Positions 7,756 through 43,053 of a stretch of DNA of 43,195 nucleotides are shown here, piece by piece. Within the stretch, counting starts at the first letter, position 1. Every line of letters begins with the position of its first letter. The translations under genes and the position numbers were made by a program. The notes under the pieces were generated by a model that did not search any database, had not been told where the DNA came from, and saw nothing but the letters and a program-made list of their open reading frames with translations. Source of the DNA: a virus. Where the stretch lies: IMG/VR virus record IMGVR_UViG_3300020438_000078, positions 1 through 43,195 of that record; one strand, written 5' to 3'.

Positions 7756-9525
7756 CTACCCCTCACAAGCCAAACACCCTTCCTCATCCATGCTTTCAAA
7801 TATATACTGTCTTAAAGCTTCATCTGAAACAGTTTCTGCTCTTTTAATAGCTTCACTACGTAAATAGTATAGAGTTTTTACTTTCTTTTTCCATGCCATC
7901 ATATGTATAGCATGAAGTTCTTGTTTTGATACATTTGCGGGAAAGAATACATTTAAGGATTGACTTTGACAAATTTGTTCTTGCCTATCAGCTGCCATGT
8001 CAATAATCCATCTCTGGTCTATCTCTACAGCGGTCTTAAAGACATCTTTAGTCCACTCATCTAAAAAGTCAAGATGTTGTACTGAGCCATTATTAGTAAT
8101 AATACTCTTCCATACCTCATCTGTATCCTGATCCATCTCTTGAAGAACATGCTCAAGATACTCATTTTTTAAGAGAGAAGATCCTGATTTAGTTTTTTGC
8201 GTAAATGCATTAGCCCGATAAGGCTCAATGCTGGGGGAAGTATTGCCACAAATAATAGAACTGCTAGCATTAGGAGCCACAGCCAAAAGATGAGCGTTGC
8301 GAATACCGTAACCCATTCCATCAGGACACTCGCCCCGTTCCTCAGCCAACTGTTTAGTTGCATTTTCTGCCTCCGTTTTTATACGCCTGAACATCTGCAT
8401 ATTTTTGCCTTTAGCCACCGCACTTTCAAAAGGAATATTCTGCCGTTGTAAGTAAGCATGAAATCCCATTGCTCCAAGCCCTAGGCTTCTTTCTTGTTCT
8501 GCACTATATACTGCTTTTGCTAGTTCTGCTGGTGCATTTTCTACAAAATAAGTAATTACATTGTCCAGCATCCTAATTAAATCAGGAATAAACTGAGGAT
8601 TAGTACTCCATTCATCATATTCTTCTAGATTTACACTTGATAGGCAACATACTGCTGTTCTGTTTTCATCAGTTGCTAGTGTAATCTCGGAGCATAAATT
8701 AGAGTGATTTACTTTTAAACCCTTGTCTGCTTGACAGTTTGGTAAAGCACTTTGAACTGTATCACCAAACATGATATACGGCTCACCAGTTTCTACTCGG
8801 TTTTGTATTAGTTTTACCCACAAAGTTTTTGCAGAAACGGTTTTAGTAACTTTTCCTGTGTGTGGGTCAATTAAATCCCACGAATCATCGAAACCTGCCG
8901 TTCTAGTAGCATTTTCAATTATTTCCATGAACCTGTTGCTAACCACAACACCATGATGCAGATTAACAGACTTTCTATTAACATCGCCCCCTGTGGGCTT
9001 TCTAACATCGAGAAACTCTTCCACCTCTGGGTGAGATATATCCAAATATGCAGCATAACTGCCTCTCCTAGTTACTCCTTGCGAAAATGCTAGCATTTCT
9101 GCATCTACCACTTTCATGAATGGTATGACTCCTGTACTTTCTGAGCCATTTGACGTTTTTGATCCTACAGAGCGAATAGCTGACCAAGCCCCACCAACGC
9201 CACCGCCCACACTAGAAAGAAAAGCGTTCTCTGTGTAGTGACTTGTGATTCCTTGTCTGCTGTCCTCAACATAATTAAGAAAACAGCTAATAGGCAGCCC
9301 ACGGGTTGTTCCACCATTAGAAAGTATAGGAGTAGAAAACATAAACCAAAGTTTACTAGCATAGTCGTATAGTCTCTGTGCATGTGCTTCATTATCTGAA
9401 AACGCTTTTGCTGCACGTGCAAACGCATCTTGAGGCGAAGTTTCGCCTTCAATTAAGTATCTATCTTGTAAAGTTTTATGACTAAACTCTGAAAGATAAT
9501 TATCTCTTTTATAGTCAATTAACAC
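7756..9525 (-). CDS. nrdA: Ribonucleoside-diphosphate reductase class I, alpha subunit (short form)
   Basis: A 589-residue alpha subunit starting with GTG (GAGAGGA four bases upstream). Active-site residues are present: Cys81 (LPISCF), Asn276-Cys278-Glu280 (NLCSE) and Cys293 (AVCCLSSVNL), plus C-terminal redox cysteines 584 and 587 (CLAC). It reduces ribonucleotides with the NrdB radical. The chain begins almost directly at the catalytic domain and lacks the roughly 90-residue N-terminal ATP-cone of host NrdA. It should therefore lack dATP feedback inhibition at that site, as in several phage enzymes. It overlaps the exonuclease gene by 7 bp. Confidence 0.95.
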   Translation of the reverse strand: MLIDYKRDNYLSEFSHKTLQDRYLIEGETSPQDAFARAAKAFSDNEAHAQRLYDYASKLWFMFSTPILSNGGTTRGLPISCFLNYVEDSRQGITSHYTENAFLSSVGGGVGGAWSAIRSVGSKTSNGSESTGVIPFMKVVDAEMLAFSQGVTRRGSYAAYLDISHPEVEEFLDVRKPTGGDVNRKSVNLHHGVVVSNRFMEIIENATRTAGFDDSWDLIDPHTGKVTKTVSAKTLWVKLIQNRVETGEPYIMFGDTVQSALPNCQADKGLKVNHSNLCSEITLATDENRTAVCCLSSVNLEEYDEWSTNPQFIPDLIRMLDNVITYFVENAPAELAKAVYSAEQERSLGLGAMGFHAYLQRQNIPFESAVAKGKNMQMFRRIKTEAENATKQLAEERGECPDGMGYGIRNAHLLAVAPNASSSIICGNTSPSIEPYRANAFTQKTKSGSSLLKNEYLEHVLQEMDQDTDEVWKSIITNNGSVQHLDFLDEWTKDVFKTAVEIDQRWIIDMAADRQEQICQSQSLNVFFPANVSKQELHAIHMMAWKKKVKTLYYLRSEAIKRAETVSDEALRQYIFESMDEEGCLACEG

Positions 9526-10337
9526 GCAATCCTCTCCTCAATCTGTGCTATGTTATTTCCTCCTATAGCATCATCACAATACGATATTAAATCCATTAAT
9601 TCATAATTTTGAAGTATTCGTTCTCCGCAAGCATTTAATTCTTGTATATGCTTATACTTACTAGGAATGGGAAGAGAGTCGTAAATATTCATTGCATCGC
9701 CGTATGCAATAATTAAATCTTTAGCTCTCTTAGGTCCAATACCTGTAATGCCAGGAACATTATCTCCTTTATCGCCTGTTAGACATTTTAAGGAAATATA
9801 CTGCTCTGGGCTAACCTCATAGTGTTCATACCAATTCTGAATCCGTATTTCTTTTCTATTAACATAAGAAAATCTATTTACTTTTTCTTGAATTAGTAAA
9901 TCCCAGTCTCGGTCGCTTGATATTAACCAAACTTCTTCAAACCCATACTCGTCTTTATTTTTTACTAGATGTGCAGCAATATCATCTGCTTCTACTCCGT
10001 CAAAACGAAGTATAGGCCATTTTAACATATCTAAAGTGGCTTGATATTCTTCAAAAAATTCTTCAAACGCAATTTTTTCTTCTTCCGTCTGCGTAGCATA
10101 CTTATCTTTTCTATTTTGCTTATAATCAGGAAGTATGTCTTTACGATATCGGGAAGATCCGCCGTCTGCTGTAATTATTATATTATCACATTTATACGAG
10201 TCTGCAAGACTTTGTACTGTCTTTTCGTACTCATATCTAAAATCTGTTCTGCCCTGATGTTTCCATCGAAACGCTAAGTTAAGGGCATCAACTATTAGTG
10301 TTCCTGCTTTTCTCTGTGAATTAAAACTAAGTGCCAT
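9519..10337 (-). CDS. 5'-3' exonuclease / flap endonuclease
   Basis: A 272-residue protein of the FEN/PIN-like 5' nuclease family. Acidic metal-binding motifs are seen at TLIVDALNLAFR (about 13-24), ITADGGSSRYRKDILPDYKQNRK in two halves (about 56-77), DGVEADDIAAHL and SSDRDWDLL. A helix-hairpin-helix follows (LTGDKGDNVPGI, GIGPKRAKDLI). It would remove RNA primers or 5' flaps during phage DNA replication, as T4 RNase H and the PolA 5' nuclease do. The family A polymerase here has no 5' nuclease domain, so this gene likely supplies the activity. Confidence 0.92.
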   Translation of the reverse strand: MALSFNSQRKAGTLIVDALNLAFRWKHQGRTDFRYEYEKTVQSLADSYKCDNIIITADGGSSRYRKDILPDYKQNRKDKYATQTEEEKIAFEEFFEEYQATLDMLKWPILRFDGVEADDIAAHLVKNKDEYGFEEVWLISSDRDWDLLIQEKVNRFSYVNRKEIRIQNWYEHYEVSPEQYISLKCLTGDKGDNVPGITGIGPKRAKDLIIAYGDAMNIYDSLPIPSKYKHIQELNACGERILQNYELMDLISYCDDAIGGNNIAQIEERIAC

Positions 10338-37136: not shown

Positions 37137-37404
37137 TTTGACACTCCCTATTTTGTACTGCATTATAACCTTTCTCATCATAGAAAAGTTTTCCGTATTT
37201 AGTAATAGTGCCCCACTTCTTTCGTGTAACCGCTTCACTATTTACAATACCTCTTTCCTGCATTAGGTGAATAAAAGCTAGTACGTCCCCGCACTCCTCT
37301 TCCAATCTACCCTGCCATTCTTCGTCTTCGTACTTTAAAACTTTCGCACAGGCTTGCACTAGCTCGCCACATTCTTCCATGAGCTTAATATAGACATTAT
37401 TCAA
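37129..37404 (-). CDS. Second MazG-like pyrophosphohydrolase, 91 aa
   Basis: A 91-residue protein with KLMEECGELVQACAKVLKYE (EExxE) and RLEEECGDVLAFIHLMQERG (ExxD): the MazG/PRA-PH helical metal site. It differs clearly from the plus-strand MazG-like gene at 34930, so it is not a recent duplicate. Probably degrades or sanitises nucleotides. It overlaps the upstream HTH gene by 4 bp. Confidence 0.85.
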   Translation of the reverse strand: MNNVYIKLMEECGELVQACAKVLKYEDEEWQGRLEEECGDVLAFIHLMQERGIVNSEAVTRKKWGTITKYGKLFYDEKGYNAVQNRECQNG

Positions 37405-37715
37405 TTTAGTTCCTTAAGAGCTGTCTCTAGTTTTTTGAGGGTTGCTTTTGGAGCTTTTTCCAAGCCCAGTAGAGAATCCACTTCGATTGCCAAAGAATCA
37501 GCAATATTTGAAACGATTTCTGTTTTTGTGACAGGTAATTCACCAGTTTTAGTTTTATAGATTTCACGTCTGTAAACTCCTTCTCTCGATAACTTACCAA
37601 TTATTGATTTTATACTCTTGTTGAGTTCTTTTGCTAAAGATTCAACCGTTTCTCGATTTGGATTGGTTTTGTACTCTTCAACAATGTACTGCGTTTGTTC
37701 TTCACTGTAGTTCAT
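37401..37715 (-). CDS. Small HTH-type DNA-binding paralogue
   Basis: A 104-residue protein: NYSEEQTQYIVEEYKTNPNR, then TVESLAKELNKSIKSIIGKL (HTH), then SREGVYRRE. A linker and a C-terminal domain follow (VTKTEIVSNIADSLAIEVDS, ATLKKLETALKEL). The same two-domain plan recurs at 39059 and 42345. A MarR/sigma-like HTH plus a SAP/HeH-like helical domain is my reading of it. Probable transcription or nucleoid factor. Confidence 0.75.
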   Translation of the reverse strand: MNYSEEQTQYIVEEYKTNPNRETVESLAKELNKSIKSIIGKLSREGVYRREIYKTKTGELPVTKTEIVSNIADSLAIEVDSLLGLEKAPKATLKKLETALKELN

Positions 37716-39058: not shown

Positions 39059-39376
39059 CTAGGAAATAGCTTCTAAAAGAGTTTCCAAGTCACCAAAGCC
39101 AGCCTTGTTTAGGCTTACGAACTCAACCTTAAGCTCGGCTTCGATCTGTGCTACCAAATCAGCTTTTCTCACCTGAGGTGGACGCTTGGTAGGCTTAGCT
39201 TGGGCAATGTATACACCCAGAGCTGAGAGCTTAGCAATAACACTTCGCTCAGTTTTGCTGAACTCAGATGCTAACTCATTAACAGTAGCACGAGTAGGGG
39301 TGGCTTCGTAGCGTGAAACCATGTTGTCAATAACTTCCTGAGGATAGTTAGAGCTTTTGTTTGCAGTCATAGTCAT
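39059..39376 (-). CDS. Small HTH-type DNA-binding paralogue
   Basis: A 105-residue protein from ATG 39376 (GGGAGAG about nine bases upstream). Another in-frame ATG at 39427 lies 6 nt after the -10 and could start a leaderless message. The HTH is in VNELASEFSKTERSVIAKLS, then ALGVYIAQ. The C-terminal domain is RKADLVAQIEAELKVEFVSL, ending LETLLEAIS. It is closely similar in plan to 37401 and 42345. Confidence 0.75.
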   Translation of the reverse strand: MTMTANKSSNYPQEVIDNMVSRYEATPTRATVNELASEFSKTERSVIAKLSALGVYIAQAKPTKRPPQVRKADLVAQIEAELKVEFVSLNKAGFGDLETLLEAIS

Positions 39377-39433
39377 AGTGTTTTCTCTCCCGAAAAATAA
39401 TTTATTTAATGTTGCTCTCAATTTCATAATACT

Positions 39434-40088: not shown

Positions 40089-40260
40089 ATGTTTTTGCCC
40101 CTAATCGTGAAAAAAACGCAAGGGAATTCCGGGGGGCCGCGCGCGGGGTCGTGATGTCAAGAACTTTTTGCTCAATTTCCCCAAATTTTCGTTAATTTAC
40201 TACCCCGTTCCGCAGACTTCCGCAATTATAAACAATTTGCACCAAACGTGCAAAAAAGAC

Positions 40261-40289
40261 TTGACACGCGACCCCGTTGCGGGTATACT
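40261..40289 (+). promoter_or_regulatory. Plus-strand promoter 1 in the 40106-40504 gene-free stretch
   Basis: TTGACA (40261-40266), 17-bp spacer, TATACT (40284-40289). It is preceded by GTGCAAAAAAGAC and followed by GGCGC. The 40106-40504 stretch has no convincing gene; it holds this repeat pair and a GC-rich patch at 40130-40150 (GGGGGGCCGCGCGCGGGG). Confidence 0.75.
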
Positions 40290-40383
40290 GGCGCCGGGCC
40301 GCTTCTCGATTTTTCACTTAGCTTTTGCACTGGCGCAGACTTGCCACTTTGGAAAAAATTTGGTGCACACCCGCAAAAAAGAC

Positions 40384-40412
40384 TTGACATTGCTCGCTTT
40401 TGCACTTATACT
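40384..40412 (+). promoter_or_regulatory. Plus-strand promoter 2, repeat of promoter 1
   Basis: TTGACA (40384-40389), 17-bp spacer, TATACT (40407-40412), with the same GCAAAAAAGAC before and GGCGC after. The pair is 123 bp apart. Transcripts would run into the antisense strand of the polyphosphate kinase gene. Confidence 0.75.
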
Positions 40413-40504
40413 GGCGCAGGCAACACCAACGTTCGCTTCGTTACTCTACTACTGGCGCCCCCGCGCCGAAAATCCCGAAAAATCCAGAAATTTTTGGGCG
40501 GGCG

Positions 40505-40520
40505 TGTTTCACGTGGAACA
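40505..40520. other. Canonical chromosomal-type parS site
   Basis: TGTTTCACGTGGAACA at 40505-40520 reads TGTTCCACGTGAAACA on the other strand, the standard ParB-binding parS of bacterial chromosomes, with all 16 bases matching. It includes the TGA stop of the polyphosphate kinase gene. No ParA or ParB gene is seen in the window, so a host ParB would be the binder. Confidence 0.85.
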
Positions 40521-41120
40521 TTCCGCGAGTAGCACCTTGAGAAAATTTTCGATTCCGATTTTTTTGTCATTATAATCTATTGTGTTCCAGTCTGGCGAAA
40601 CCACGCGCTCTTTTAAAATGCTCATTCGGTCATAATGTGATAATGCGTTTTCATCATTCTCGGAAAATTTCCAATATGTTAGAGGTGAAATTTTTCTCGC
40701 CTCGATTCGCGTTCTCTGTTCCGATTCGGAAATTGAAAGCCAGAATTTAATGAATTGAACGCCACCAGCGATTTGGCCAGCTTCCCATTCAAGATGGTTA
40801 TTCAAAAAATTTTCGTATTGTTTATCAGTACACCAGCCGTTCATTTTTTGAACCATCGCCCGCGAATACCAAGAGCGGTCATAGAAAACGATTTGATTTT
40901 TTGCGGGCATTTTGGTTGCCCAAAATTTGAGCCAGCTTCGCATAACATTTTCGGATGGTTTAGTTGATGGGACAATGCTATACCATGCAGGATTTAAATA
41001 TTCAGTAATCGCCCGAATAGTCGAGGATTTTCCGGCAGTATCTCGCCCCTCTAAAATTACAGCAATGCGTTTTTCATTCGCGTCTGCAATTCGGTTAAGT
41101 TGTATTAGTAAATTTTTCAT
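40509..41120 (-). CDS. Polyphosphate kinase 2-like
   Basis: A 203-residue PPK2 starting at ATG 41120 (ATGA overlap with the upstream gene; a longer frame to 41222 is a shadow). Walker A is EGRDTAGKSSTIRAI (residues about 24-38), lid and substrate motifs include NPAWYSIVPSTKPSE, and Walker B is FYDRSWYSRA (79-86). KFWLSISESEQRTRIEAR also fits the family. PPK2 uses polyphosphate to phosphorylate nucleotides or the reverse. Its role would be energy or dNTP supply. The stop lies inside the parS site. Confidence 0.9.
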   Translation of the reverse strand: MKNLLIQLNRIADANEKRIAVILEGRDTAGKSSTIRAITEYLNPAWYSIVPSTKPSENVMRSWLKFWATKMPAKNQIVFYDRSWYSRAMVQKMNGWCTDKQYENFLNNHLEWEAGQIAGGVQFIKFWLSISESEQRTRIEARKISPLTYWKFSENDENALSHYDRMSILKERVVSPDWNTIDYNDKKIGIENFLKVLLAECST

Positions 41121-41683
41121 ATTGCGTATCCTTTTTCTTCTGGATTTTCTAGTGGAGTCGGGCAACCATGAATTCCAGTTTTCCGTTTCCAGTTTACAGT
41201 TTCTAAACCGATTTTTTTGCAATCTTGCCTTTGGGCATTTGCAAATTTCTTTTTAGCTAGTTTTTCATTCATGTTGAAAAATTCGCTGTGACCGCCAACA
41301 GGCTTTTTACCTTTCGCGGTTAAATCGCGGAATAATCCAGCTAGTCGAAAATTTTTGTTTTTCTTGTGGAAAAATTGTTCGCTGGAAAGCGTCTCGTCAA
41401 ATGTGCCAGTAGTCAAACCGATTAATTCGGCTTTTAATGAACCAGTGGGCAAATCGTGCGATTCTTCAATATTGCGTAGCGTTTCAATGATGCGAGATTC
41501 AACGCCATTAAATCCACCAGCTCGGCAATATTTTGCAAAGCCGTTTTTTATGATGCACATTCCAGCAAATGCGGGAACGAGTTTTCCTAGTCCCTTTAAT
41601 CGCCATAAATAATTGAATCCGAAATCATCAAATGGCGAACCATCTATTGAATTAGGGGACATTGTAGAGTTTAAAGTTTTCAT
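41117..41683 (-). CDS. Unknown protein upstream of PPK2, 188 aa
   Basis: A 188-residue product starting MKTLNSTMSPNSIDGSPFDD. Segments include FNYLWRLKGLGKLVPAFAGM, YCRAGGFNGVESRIIETLRN and GGHSEFFNMNEKLAKKKFAN, ending in a basic tail with a Cys/Pro motif (GIHGCPTPLENPEE). I recognise no family. It is translationally coupled to PPK2, which suggests a shared process. Base use (many CGA, TTCG, CCAG) differs from the rest of the window. Confidence 0.65.
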   Translation of the reverse strand: MKTLNSTMSPNSIDGSPFDDFGFNYLWRLKGLGKLVPAFAGMCIIKNGFAKYCRAGGFNGVESRIIETLRNIEESHDLPTGSLKAELIGLTTGTFDETLSSEQFFHKKNKNFRLAGLFRDLTAKGKKPVGGHSEFFNMNEKLAKKKFANAQRQDCKKIGLETVNWKRKTGIHGCPTPLENPEEKGYAI

Positions 41684-42161: not shown

Positions 42162-42345
42162 AAAAGTAACCTATAATTCCAGTGATATTAAGTATGATAA
42201 GATTGTAGCATTTCTTGTCATACGCTTGCAAGCATAGCAGAGTCAAGCCCGCCATTGCCATCAGCTTTCCTTGGTCTGTATCTATGACGAACGGAGCGAA
42301 CGCCATACATACAGTGCCAAGCCAAGCCGACCAGTTAATGAGCAT
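42145..42345 (-). CDS. Small multi-span membrane protein (holin-like), 66 aa
   Basis: A 66-residue frame from ATG 42345, overlapping the HTH stop as TGATG. Three hydrophobic segments (WSAWLGTVCMAFAPFVI, KLMAMAGLTLLCLQAY, LIILNITGIIGYFYAFYF) fit a holin or other small membrane factor. The start codon lies in one arm of a perfect 9-bp hairpin, so translation may need ribosomes ending the upstream gene. Holin function is a guess. Confidence 0.65.
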   Translation of the reverse strand: MLINWSAWLGTVCMAFAPFVIDTDQGKLMAMAGLTLLCLQAYDKKCYNLIILNITGIIGYFYAFYF

Positions 42346-42359
42346 CAAGAGATGCTCAT
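42338..42359 (-). promoter_or_regulatory. Hairpin at a stop/start overlap
   Basis: ATGAGCATC (42338-42346), loop AAGA, GATGCTCAT (42351-42359): a perfect 9-bp stem covering the TGA of the HTH gene and the ATG of the membrane gene. Confidence 0.7.
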
Positions 42360-42635
42360 CAGTAAGGCAGAGAGAGAAGCCATAGTAGCCCCTTCCAAAC
42401 CTGTAAGGCTTTCACCTTGCAAGGCAGTTTCAATGGCTTGCACCATTTCCACCTTAGTGGTACGAGAAGAAGAAACAGATGCTTCTGGCTTCTGGTAGAT
42501 GTTCAAAAGTACAGCTTTTGAAATGATAGAACGGACAGGCAATGCCCATTCCGAAGCGAGAGTATTAGCTACCTCGCGTGTGATGGGAGCCGAATCCATC
42601 ATTTGAGCGACCATTTTAGTTGTATATTTTGACAT
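42345..42635 (-). CDS. Small HTH-type DNA-binding paralogue
   Basis: A 96-residue protein: MSKYTTKMVAQMMDSAPITR, then EVANTLASEWALPVRSIISK (HTH), then AVLLNIYQKPEA. The C-terminal domain is TTKVEMVQAIETALQGESLT, ending SALLMSIS. It shares the two-domain plan of 37401 and 39059: aromatic start, E.A..LA.E....RSII.K, then TK.E.V..IE.AL, then L..L. Likely a transcription factor of a phage-specific family. Confidence 0.75.
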   Translation of the reverse strand: MSKYTTKMVAQMMDSAPITREVANTLASEWALPVRSIISKAVLLNIYQKPEASVSSSRTTKVEMVQAIETALQGESLTGLEGATMASLSALLMSIS

Positions 42636-42652
42636 AATATATGTCTCCTATT

Positions 42653-42769
42653 TTAGTTTAAGATTAGCCAAACGATTCCACCGAGTAGAATCAGATCAGC
42701 CGTGATTGAATATACCATATAAGCCCTTAAAGCCCAAGTGGTAATTTGTGTTTTATTTATCATTTTCAT
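42653..42769 (-). CDS. Small membrane protein on a probable leaderless mRNA, 38 aa
   Basis: A 38-residue frame from ATG 42769: MKMINKTQITTWALRAYMVY, then SITADLILLGGIVWLILN, one or two membrane helices. The ATG lies 7 nt after the -10 and has no real ribosome-binding site. An upstream in-frame start (42865) would cross the promoter and is rejected. Confidence 0.55.
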   Translation of the reverse strand: MKMINKTQITTWALRAYMVYSITADLILLGGIVWLILN

Positions 42770-42776
42770 AGTGCCT

Positions 42777-42805
42777 ATTTTACAGGGTTGTTTCGCAAAT
42801 GTCAA
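42777..42805 (-). promoter_or_regulatory. Sigma70-type promoter near the Fur box
   Basis: TTGACA (42805-42800), 17-bp spacer, TAAAAT (42782-42777). A Fur-type operator is centred about 52 bp upstream of the -35. Confidence 0.8.
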
Positions 42806-42846
42806 TGGTAATAATGCACATTCCATTATATTTCCATTATTCGCCC

Positions 42847-42867
42847 AAATGAGAATCATTCTCATTT
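42847..42867. promoter_or_regulatory. Fur-box-like operator
   Basis: The 25-bp region 42845-42869 has 12-bp arms (CCAAATGAGAAT/ATTCTCATTTGG) around one central C. Its core AATGAGAATCATTCTCATT (42848-42866) satisfies every fixed position of the Vibrio/Shewanella-type Fur consensus AATGAnAATnATTnTCATT. A 1-nt loop makes a terminator hairpin unlikely. Confidence 0.75.
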
Positions 42868-42996
42868 GGCTGCGCGGTTAGCAAAGTGTCGAGCGAGGGA
42901 ATTTTTTCTGTTCCTTTTTAGATCGCTAGTGATATTGGCCGCGCATAGTTTACGCTTAATTTGGGCGTGGTAGTCTTTAGTAGATATAGTTTTCAT
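42862..42996 (-). CDS. Small basic protein, 44 aa
   Basis: A 44-residue frame from ATG 42996: MKTISTKDYHAQIKRKLCAA, then NITSDLKRNRKNSLARHFAN. It is strongly basic. It is the only gene read directly from the promoter at 43025-43053. Its stop codon lies in the Fur-like palindrome. The ribosome-binding site is weak (AAGAAA). Function unknown; nucleic-acid binding is possible. Confidence 0.5.
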   Translation of the reverse strand: MKTISTKDYHAQIKRKLCAANITSDLKRNRKNSLARHFANRAAK

Positions 42997-43024: not shown

Positions 43025-43053
43025 ATTATCGCATAAATAAATGCAAATGTCAA
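43025..43053 (-). promoter_or_regulatory. Sigma70-type promoter, minus strand
   Basis: TTGACA (43053-43048), 17-bp spacer, GATAAT (43030-43025). Beyond it, 43060-43195 shows only AT-rich sequence, a poly-C patch and a weak plus-strand TTGACA...TAATAA; no gene is seen. Confidence 0.82.

Follow-up and report, generated by a model that had tools for sequence, protein, structure and literature searches.

A perfect Fur-type palindrome beside a sigma-70-like promoter of a marine T5-like phage, and Fur-type sites in the injection stop zone of the T5 family

The window that we analyzed is a whole IMG/VR virus record of 43,195 bases. Its proteins make up a T5-like set: a split NAD-dependent DNA ligase, a D5-like regulator, an SbcC/D pair and a T5-type DNA polymerase, all four of which point to membership of the Demerecviridae, together with a primase, helicases, a ribonucleotide reductase and PhoH. 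The best relatives of the DNA polymerase (~43% identity) belong to T5-like phages of Aeromonas and Vibrio. The virus is a T5-like, marine one. The right half of the window had no match to named phages by megablast. Genes for 2OG-Fe(II) oxygenases accompany the ribonucleotide reductase gene, and three A2-like paralogues are encoded along with the D5-like regulator. The window is a fragment without end repeats, and no homologue of A1 or dmp was found among the proteins scanned. A phage-encoded polyphosphate kinase 2 (PPK2) is also present at 40509–41222 (Pfam E = 4e-45). Near it, at 40211–40420, two tandem promoter units form an imperfect 87-nt repeat with GGCGC after each −10 box; this stretch has no clear gene, and like arrays occur at five other loci.

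The locus considered here lies close to the right end of the window and reads along the minus strand, from P1 through a 44-aa open reading frame (ORF), a palindrome, 39 bp of spacer, P2 and a 38-aa ORF to the gene of a 96-aa protein:

43025–43053, minus strand: promoter P1, sigma-70-like (TTGACA-17-GATAAT), upstream of the 44-aa ORF
42862–42996, minus strand: 44-aa ORF, an open frame whose stop codon lies inside the palindrome
42845–42869, no strand assigned: 25-bp perfect odd palindrome CCAAATGAGAATCATTCTCATTTGG, with a Fur-type 7-1-7 core TGAGAATCATTCTCA at 42850–42864
42806–42844, minus strand: 39-bp spacer separating the palindrome from P2; the relative L237 has the identical sequence, and L238 and L241 have near-identical ones
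42777–42805, minus strand: promoter P2, sigma-70-like (TTGACA-17-TAAAAT), 39 bp downstream of the palindrome
42653–42769, minus strand: small hydrophobic 38-aa ORF MKMINKTQITTWALRAYMVYSITADLILLGGIVWLILN, starting 7 nt past the P2 −10 box
42345–42635, minus strand: 96-aa protein, a weak match to phrog_1725, the T5 A2 family (E = 0.0015; T5 A2 itself, E = 4e-52)
37401–37715, 39059–39427 and 42345–42635: the three A2-like paralogues, each weakly similar to the T5 A2 family (pre-early DNA-binding protein)

An initial annotation had described a near-perfect 25-bp palindrome at 42845–42869 that fits the Fur consensus and sits between two promoter units. The coordinates are exact, the promoters flank it as described (P1 at 43053–43025 and P2 at 42805–42777, minus strand), and the symmetry is better than claimed, as all 12 arm pairs match around a single center base. 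In the scan that we used, this is the longest inverted repeat of the window; 0.004 odd palindromes with 12-bp arms are expected from base composition. The palindrome agrees with the 7-1-7 inverted-repeat Fur consensus AATGANAATNATTNTCATT at 0 mismatches (expected number 0.0001), and it is the sole match in the window below three mismatches, the next best sites having three. Likewise, when the most frequent Fur half-sites, of which four were used (TGAGAAT, TGATAAT, TGCGAAT and TGCAAAT), served as the pattern, the palindrome was the one site in 43 kb at 0–1 deviations. A chance match was rejected on these expectations and on the absence of an equal-composition control palindrome from viral contigs. 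The weight-matrix scan proposed at the outset also ranks this site first in the window, with a score of 16.2 at 42845, on a matrix built from 11 E. coli Fur promoters. Note that this matrix is registered on GATAAT hexamers, and the 19-mer score of the palindrome reads in that frame. The suggested coincidence with an iron-linked gene set was not supported: the genes exist, but no other Fur-type site, near the iron-enzyme genes or anywhere else in the window, was found at 0–1 deviations. An intrinsic terminator, which requires a GC-rich stem and a U-tract, was also rejected, as no T-run follows the stem on either strand.

Relatives of the locus were retrieved through a neighboring phosphatase-like gene and then aligned. 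Two of them (L234 and L235) hardly differ from the window. In L237 and L238, the palindrome, spacer and promoter are retained but the upstream ORF is unrelated; L241 retains the palindrome, with one end mismatch and the opposite center base, and has no ORF aligned upstream. Because relatives keep the palindrome and P2 while the upstream ORF changes, the palindrome goes with P2 rather than with the 44-aa ORF. This weakens the alternative first raised for it, a hairpin at the 3′ end of the 44-aa gene; in a form specific to that gene, we rejected it. The start codon and N-terminus of the 38-aa ORF are conserved across the aligned relatives, and its transcript is probably leaderless, because the start lies so soon after the P2 −10 box. 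The linkage to P2 is also seen in the six contigs that share a 22-mer beside this promoter, all of which have a Fur-type core. Close relatives carry a second site 156 or ~350 bp further upstream, beyond the position of the window's end in L234 and L077, and at most two sites were seen in any of them, compared with one in the window. Three relatives (L236, L239 and L240) have this slot, upstream of their P2 homologue, filled by a different palindrome, TTTGGTAAT(A)ATTACCAAA. This is perhaps the operator of another regulator, in which case operator swapping between relatives is possible. Because three relatives have another palindrome in this slot, a structural role for the palindrome keeps some plausibility.

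The phage site shares its form with bacterial Fur boxes. Among 274 bacterial genomes (the class of Polynucleobacter), 89 match the pattern AATGNNAATNATTNNCATT and 6 match the reversed pattern. The half-sites of 75 listed bacterial sites (n = 150) were TGATAAT (57), TGAGAAT (43), TGCAAAT (18) and TGCGAAT (7), so that these four account for 125 of 150 among the sites listed. Genes beside the bacterial sites, named by sequence reading, encode FbpA-like, FeoB, TonB-receptor, ExbD-like and ErpA-like proteins. Phage half-sites (TGAGAAT, 121; TGCGAAT, 36; TGATAAT, 11; other, 2) fall inside this bacterial alphabet. Gammaproteobacterial Fur boxes (fepA-fes, fhuA, FbpA, FeoB and TonB-receptor promoters) have the same 7-1-7 architecture, TG[A/C][G/T/A]AAT-N-ATT..CA, and the same half-site variants; however, phage copies are more often perfectly symmetric and favor TGAGAAT and TGCGAAT over TGATAAT. 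The placement also differs, as the window site stands upstream of P2, 39 bp from its −35 box, and not over the core promoter.

In marine phage contigs, the core often occurs ~10 bp after a promoter of the form TTGACA-N17-TAAAAT-GGCGCC, the GGCGC of which fits the single-chain-interruption (nick) motif noted in the T5 record. These marine promoters (TTGACA-N17-TAWAAT-GGCGC) resemble the window locus in linking a sigma-70 promoter to a palindrome, but the palindrome follows the −10 box, whereas that of the window precedes the −35 box. A promoter scan that did not require a palindrome yielded 148–150 distinct GGCGC promoters. Stems of at least seven pairs lie just downstream of 74 of 148, compared with 10 in control sequence ~150 bp further on; most are of unrelated sequence, many have 3- to 8-nt loops, and about one-tenth are Fur-type. 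Because half of the GGCGC promoters have stems, mostly of unrelated sequence, a hairpin role is a serious rival to Fur recognition. The palindrome would then be an RNA (or extruded DNA) hairpin serving to mark or protect the upstream transcript's end (in marine relatives, the 5′ end of transcripts), with its likeness to Fur boxes being one stem solution among many. In favor of this are a strong RNA fold on either strand (z = −3.3 and −3.0), the adjacency of the palindrome to the upstream ORF's stop codon, seen in L237 and L238 as well as in the window, and the different palindrome that fills the slot in L236, L239 and L240.

Hairpins and dimeric binding sites should differ in how their two arms vary, and we compared them by leaving one symmetric pair of the GGCGC-linked core free per search and counting the variants. 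At the G/C pair, which is a degenerate position in Fur boxes, the 59 sites comprised 49 G-C, 4 G-A, 3 T-C, 2 T-A and 1 A-C; 11 of 12 half-site changes were G to T, and 8 of the 10 variant sites were unpaired. The 73 sites at the A/T pair comprised 47 A-T, 11 C-G, 9 C-T, 5 A-G and 1 A-C; of the 37 half-site changes there, 36 were A to C, and 15 of the 26 variants were unpaired. Pairing was thus broken in 23 of 36 variant sites of both pairs together, and neither G-U pairs nor the remaining compensated pairs were seen among the variants. In viral contigs, half-sites thus change singly, with nearly all variants staying within TG[A/C][G/T]AAT, as a DNA-binding protein that acts as a dimer would lead one to expect. 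At the A/T pair, double changes exceeded the prediction under independence (11 compared with ~4), which indicates some pressure for symmetry. Because this test draws on GGCGC-linked sites in other contigs, and these sites are in part related to one another, simple binomial values overstate significance. Independent variation within the alphabet of bona fide Fur boxes is found among these related phage sites, while the window's own relatives are mostly invariant.

A pure RNA-hairpin reading of the Fur-type subset was turned around by these counts, which follow half-site rules and not pairing rules. The missing U-tract, the absent control palindrome of equal composition and the retention of T5-family sites that are often asymmetric (TGCGAATCATTATCA, TGAGAATCATTATCA) also speak against it, and the comparative data favor half-site recognition by a Fur-type protein. 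Even with the excess of symmetric variants on its side, we consider the hairpin unlikely, although it fares best among the alternatives.

The marine promoters gave several observations of their own. The class TTGACA-N17-TAWAAT-YGGCGC (L122–L233) is common in marine phages, and the hairpins after it are very diverse. One recurring hairpin family, AAACAAAAGTATTCATTT, found in nine contigs, combines a constant inner part with outer arms that vary in concert, pair by pair. Another palindrome family that recurs, ATATTAGAATATT(AT)AATATTCTAATAT, occurs after or near GGCGC promoters at four loci. For 27 of 45 Fur-type GGCGC promoters, no ORF of at least 35 aa with a ribosome-binding-like motif was detected within 350 bp downstream; such promoters may serve non-coding RNAs or another purpose. 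Overall, clear genes were rare downstream of the Fur-type promoters.

Fur-type sites are widespread in the T5 family. In T5 itself (AY543070), all of them lie in the terminal repeats, and a run of Fur-like motifs at 9551–9711 falls inside the annotated injection stop signal (iss; 9140–10149). On the E. coli matrix, T5 sites score up to 19.0, inside the range of host sites (9.5–21.2). We found 158 Fur-type sites in 34 T5-like terminal-repeat loci, which include both terminal copies for some genomes, compared with 0 in the reversed control. Almost all of these sites (153 of 158) lie past the T5.015 homologue, in the iss zone, and homologous sites differ among themselves by Fur-compatible changes. 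Nine of 10 named Demerecviridae, with hosts in Escherichia, Klebsiella, Aeromonas and Vibrio, carry Fur-type sites: T5, chee24, HdH2, Klebsiella Sugarland, Aeromonas AhSzq-1 and Akh-2, and Vibrio SJ1, X1 and Thalassa. Vibrio pVp-1 has no Fur-type site at 0 mismatches, and none were found in five other large phages (T4, rV5, FelixO1, N4 and KVP40). Outside the iss zone, T5-family sites occur in dmp (at 233 in T5) and in gp8 of Thalassa.

T5 DNA halts after ~8% of its length has entered the cell, and the basis of this arrest is a long-standing question. The iss has been proposed to work through DNA structure and/or unidentified host components, with repeats, palindromes and DnaA boxes among the elements implicated (PMC13250531). 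Fur is a candidate for such a host factor at the T5 injection stop signal, and it is the strongest lead from our analysis. Applied to the window, Fur bound to a cluster near the genome end would help to hold the DNA at the stop signal until A1 and A2 bring release, and the site in the window would have been displaced from a cluster of this kind. The concentration of sites in the iss zone and their confinement to terminal repeats in T5 agree with this. Yet there is a single site in the window and no cluster, its region may or may not belong to a terminal repeat, sites also occur elsewhere (dmp and Thalassa gp8), and pVp-1 has none at 0 mismatches. We also know of no report that first-step transfer depends on iron or Fur. 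As an account of the window site, we consider a role in DNA entry about as unlikely as the hairpin. For the family at large, T5-like phages might use the host iron sensor as a docking factor: a conserved array of Fur boxes at the iss would let iron-loaded Fur hold the DNA as it enters, or control when pre-early and early genes are transcribed, and would couple two-step DNA entry via siderophore receptors (e.g., FhuA) to the iron state of the cell. We regard this broader proposal as doubtful.

The abundance of the site in viral DNA raises a further alternative. The 21-mer core occurs in 115 viral stretches, whereas an equal-composition palindrome, AAAGTAGAATCATTCTACTTT, occurs in none. The exact 23-mer is present in 45 of these stretches but in only 5 bacterial stretches in 257 Gb, and it is therefore not simply the average host Fur box. 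Two of the five bacterial matches are in Polynucleobacter, ahead of a gene set read from sequence as outer-membrane-protein, FMN-binding and ApbE-like. Copies of a perfect site on replicating phage DNA could act as a decoy that titrates host Fur, derepresses iron uptake and feeds iron to phage enzymes (the ribonucleotide reductase and 2OG-Fe(II) oxygenases). Besides the strong over-representation of perfect sites in viral relative to bacterial DNA, this would fit the several sites per T5-family genome, the iron enzymes encoded in the window and the Fur-type promoters with no detected downstream ORF. However, the window has one site and close relatives at most two, which is few relative to the Fur pool of a cell, and the position of the site is tied to a promoter. 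A decoy role thus appears improbable.

Where the palindrome occurs within viral contigs also follows some patterns. It often lies within a few hundred base pairs of a contig end (eight loci and others), as if assemblies break there because each genome has several copies. Contig 3300002143_000037 has it close to either end, suggesting a terminal repeat. At nine loci on low-GC (~0.32) contigs, the core stands beside TTGTCAAG-rich sequence, and in some of these contigs it occurs twice within ~50 bp.

Last, the palindrome might be the operator of a phage-encoded regulator with a Fur-box-like consensus, such as an A2- or D5-like protein, of which the window encodes several, and in some marine contigs several promoters do share a palindrome family of their own, but one half-site alphabet is common to bacterial Fur boxes and to phages whose hosts differ widely, and a coincidence over several half-site variants is improbable. 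We consider this reading very unlikely.

We return to recognition by Fur. In our reading, to which we give a probability of roughly 55%, the palindrome would be a binding site for the host ferric uptake regulator within a movable cassette (palindrome, 39-bp spacer and P2), and one case of a family-wide trait of T5-like phages, in which a few Fur-type sites are placed near genome ends and early promoters. Soon after DNA entry, iron-loaded host Fur would occupy the site, ~87 bp upstream of the inferred P2 start (measured from the palindrome center) and in the path of RNA polymerase arriving from P1. Bound there, it would brake transcription in response to iron, both of the genes that P2 drives and of read-through from P1. 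The early small genes, which encode the membrane-like 38-aa protein and the DNA-binding protein similar to A2, would be restrained until iron becomes scarce or Fur is titrated away. The position is not classical, as classical Fur repression would need overlap with the core promoter, which the site does not have. The Fur-box reading of the initial annotation thus stands in its form, and half-site recognition is favored by comparison, while its placement does not match that of an ordinary Fur operator.

Phage-carried Fur boxes have a precedent, as one precedes sitABCD in lambda-like coliphages (PMC6969025). That box serves an acquired iron/manganese transporter in temperate phages, whereas the T5-family sites lie in non-coding and early DNA with no transporter nearby. 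No report linking Fur or Fur-type sites to T5 or T5-family phages was found in the literature searched, chiefly papers outside subscription journals, and the presence of these sites in the family is likely, if unproven, to be new.

The family-wide occurrence of Fur-type sites in the T5 injection stop zone is a more important outcome than the window site itself. It gives a concrete candidate for the stop of T5 DNA, and one that is testable in E. coli K-12. Iron limits growth across much of the ocean. If our reading is true, virulent phages would carry operators for host Fur in their core non-coding DNA, and the course of infection would be linked to the iron status of the cell.
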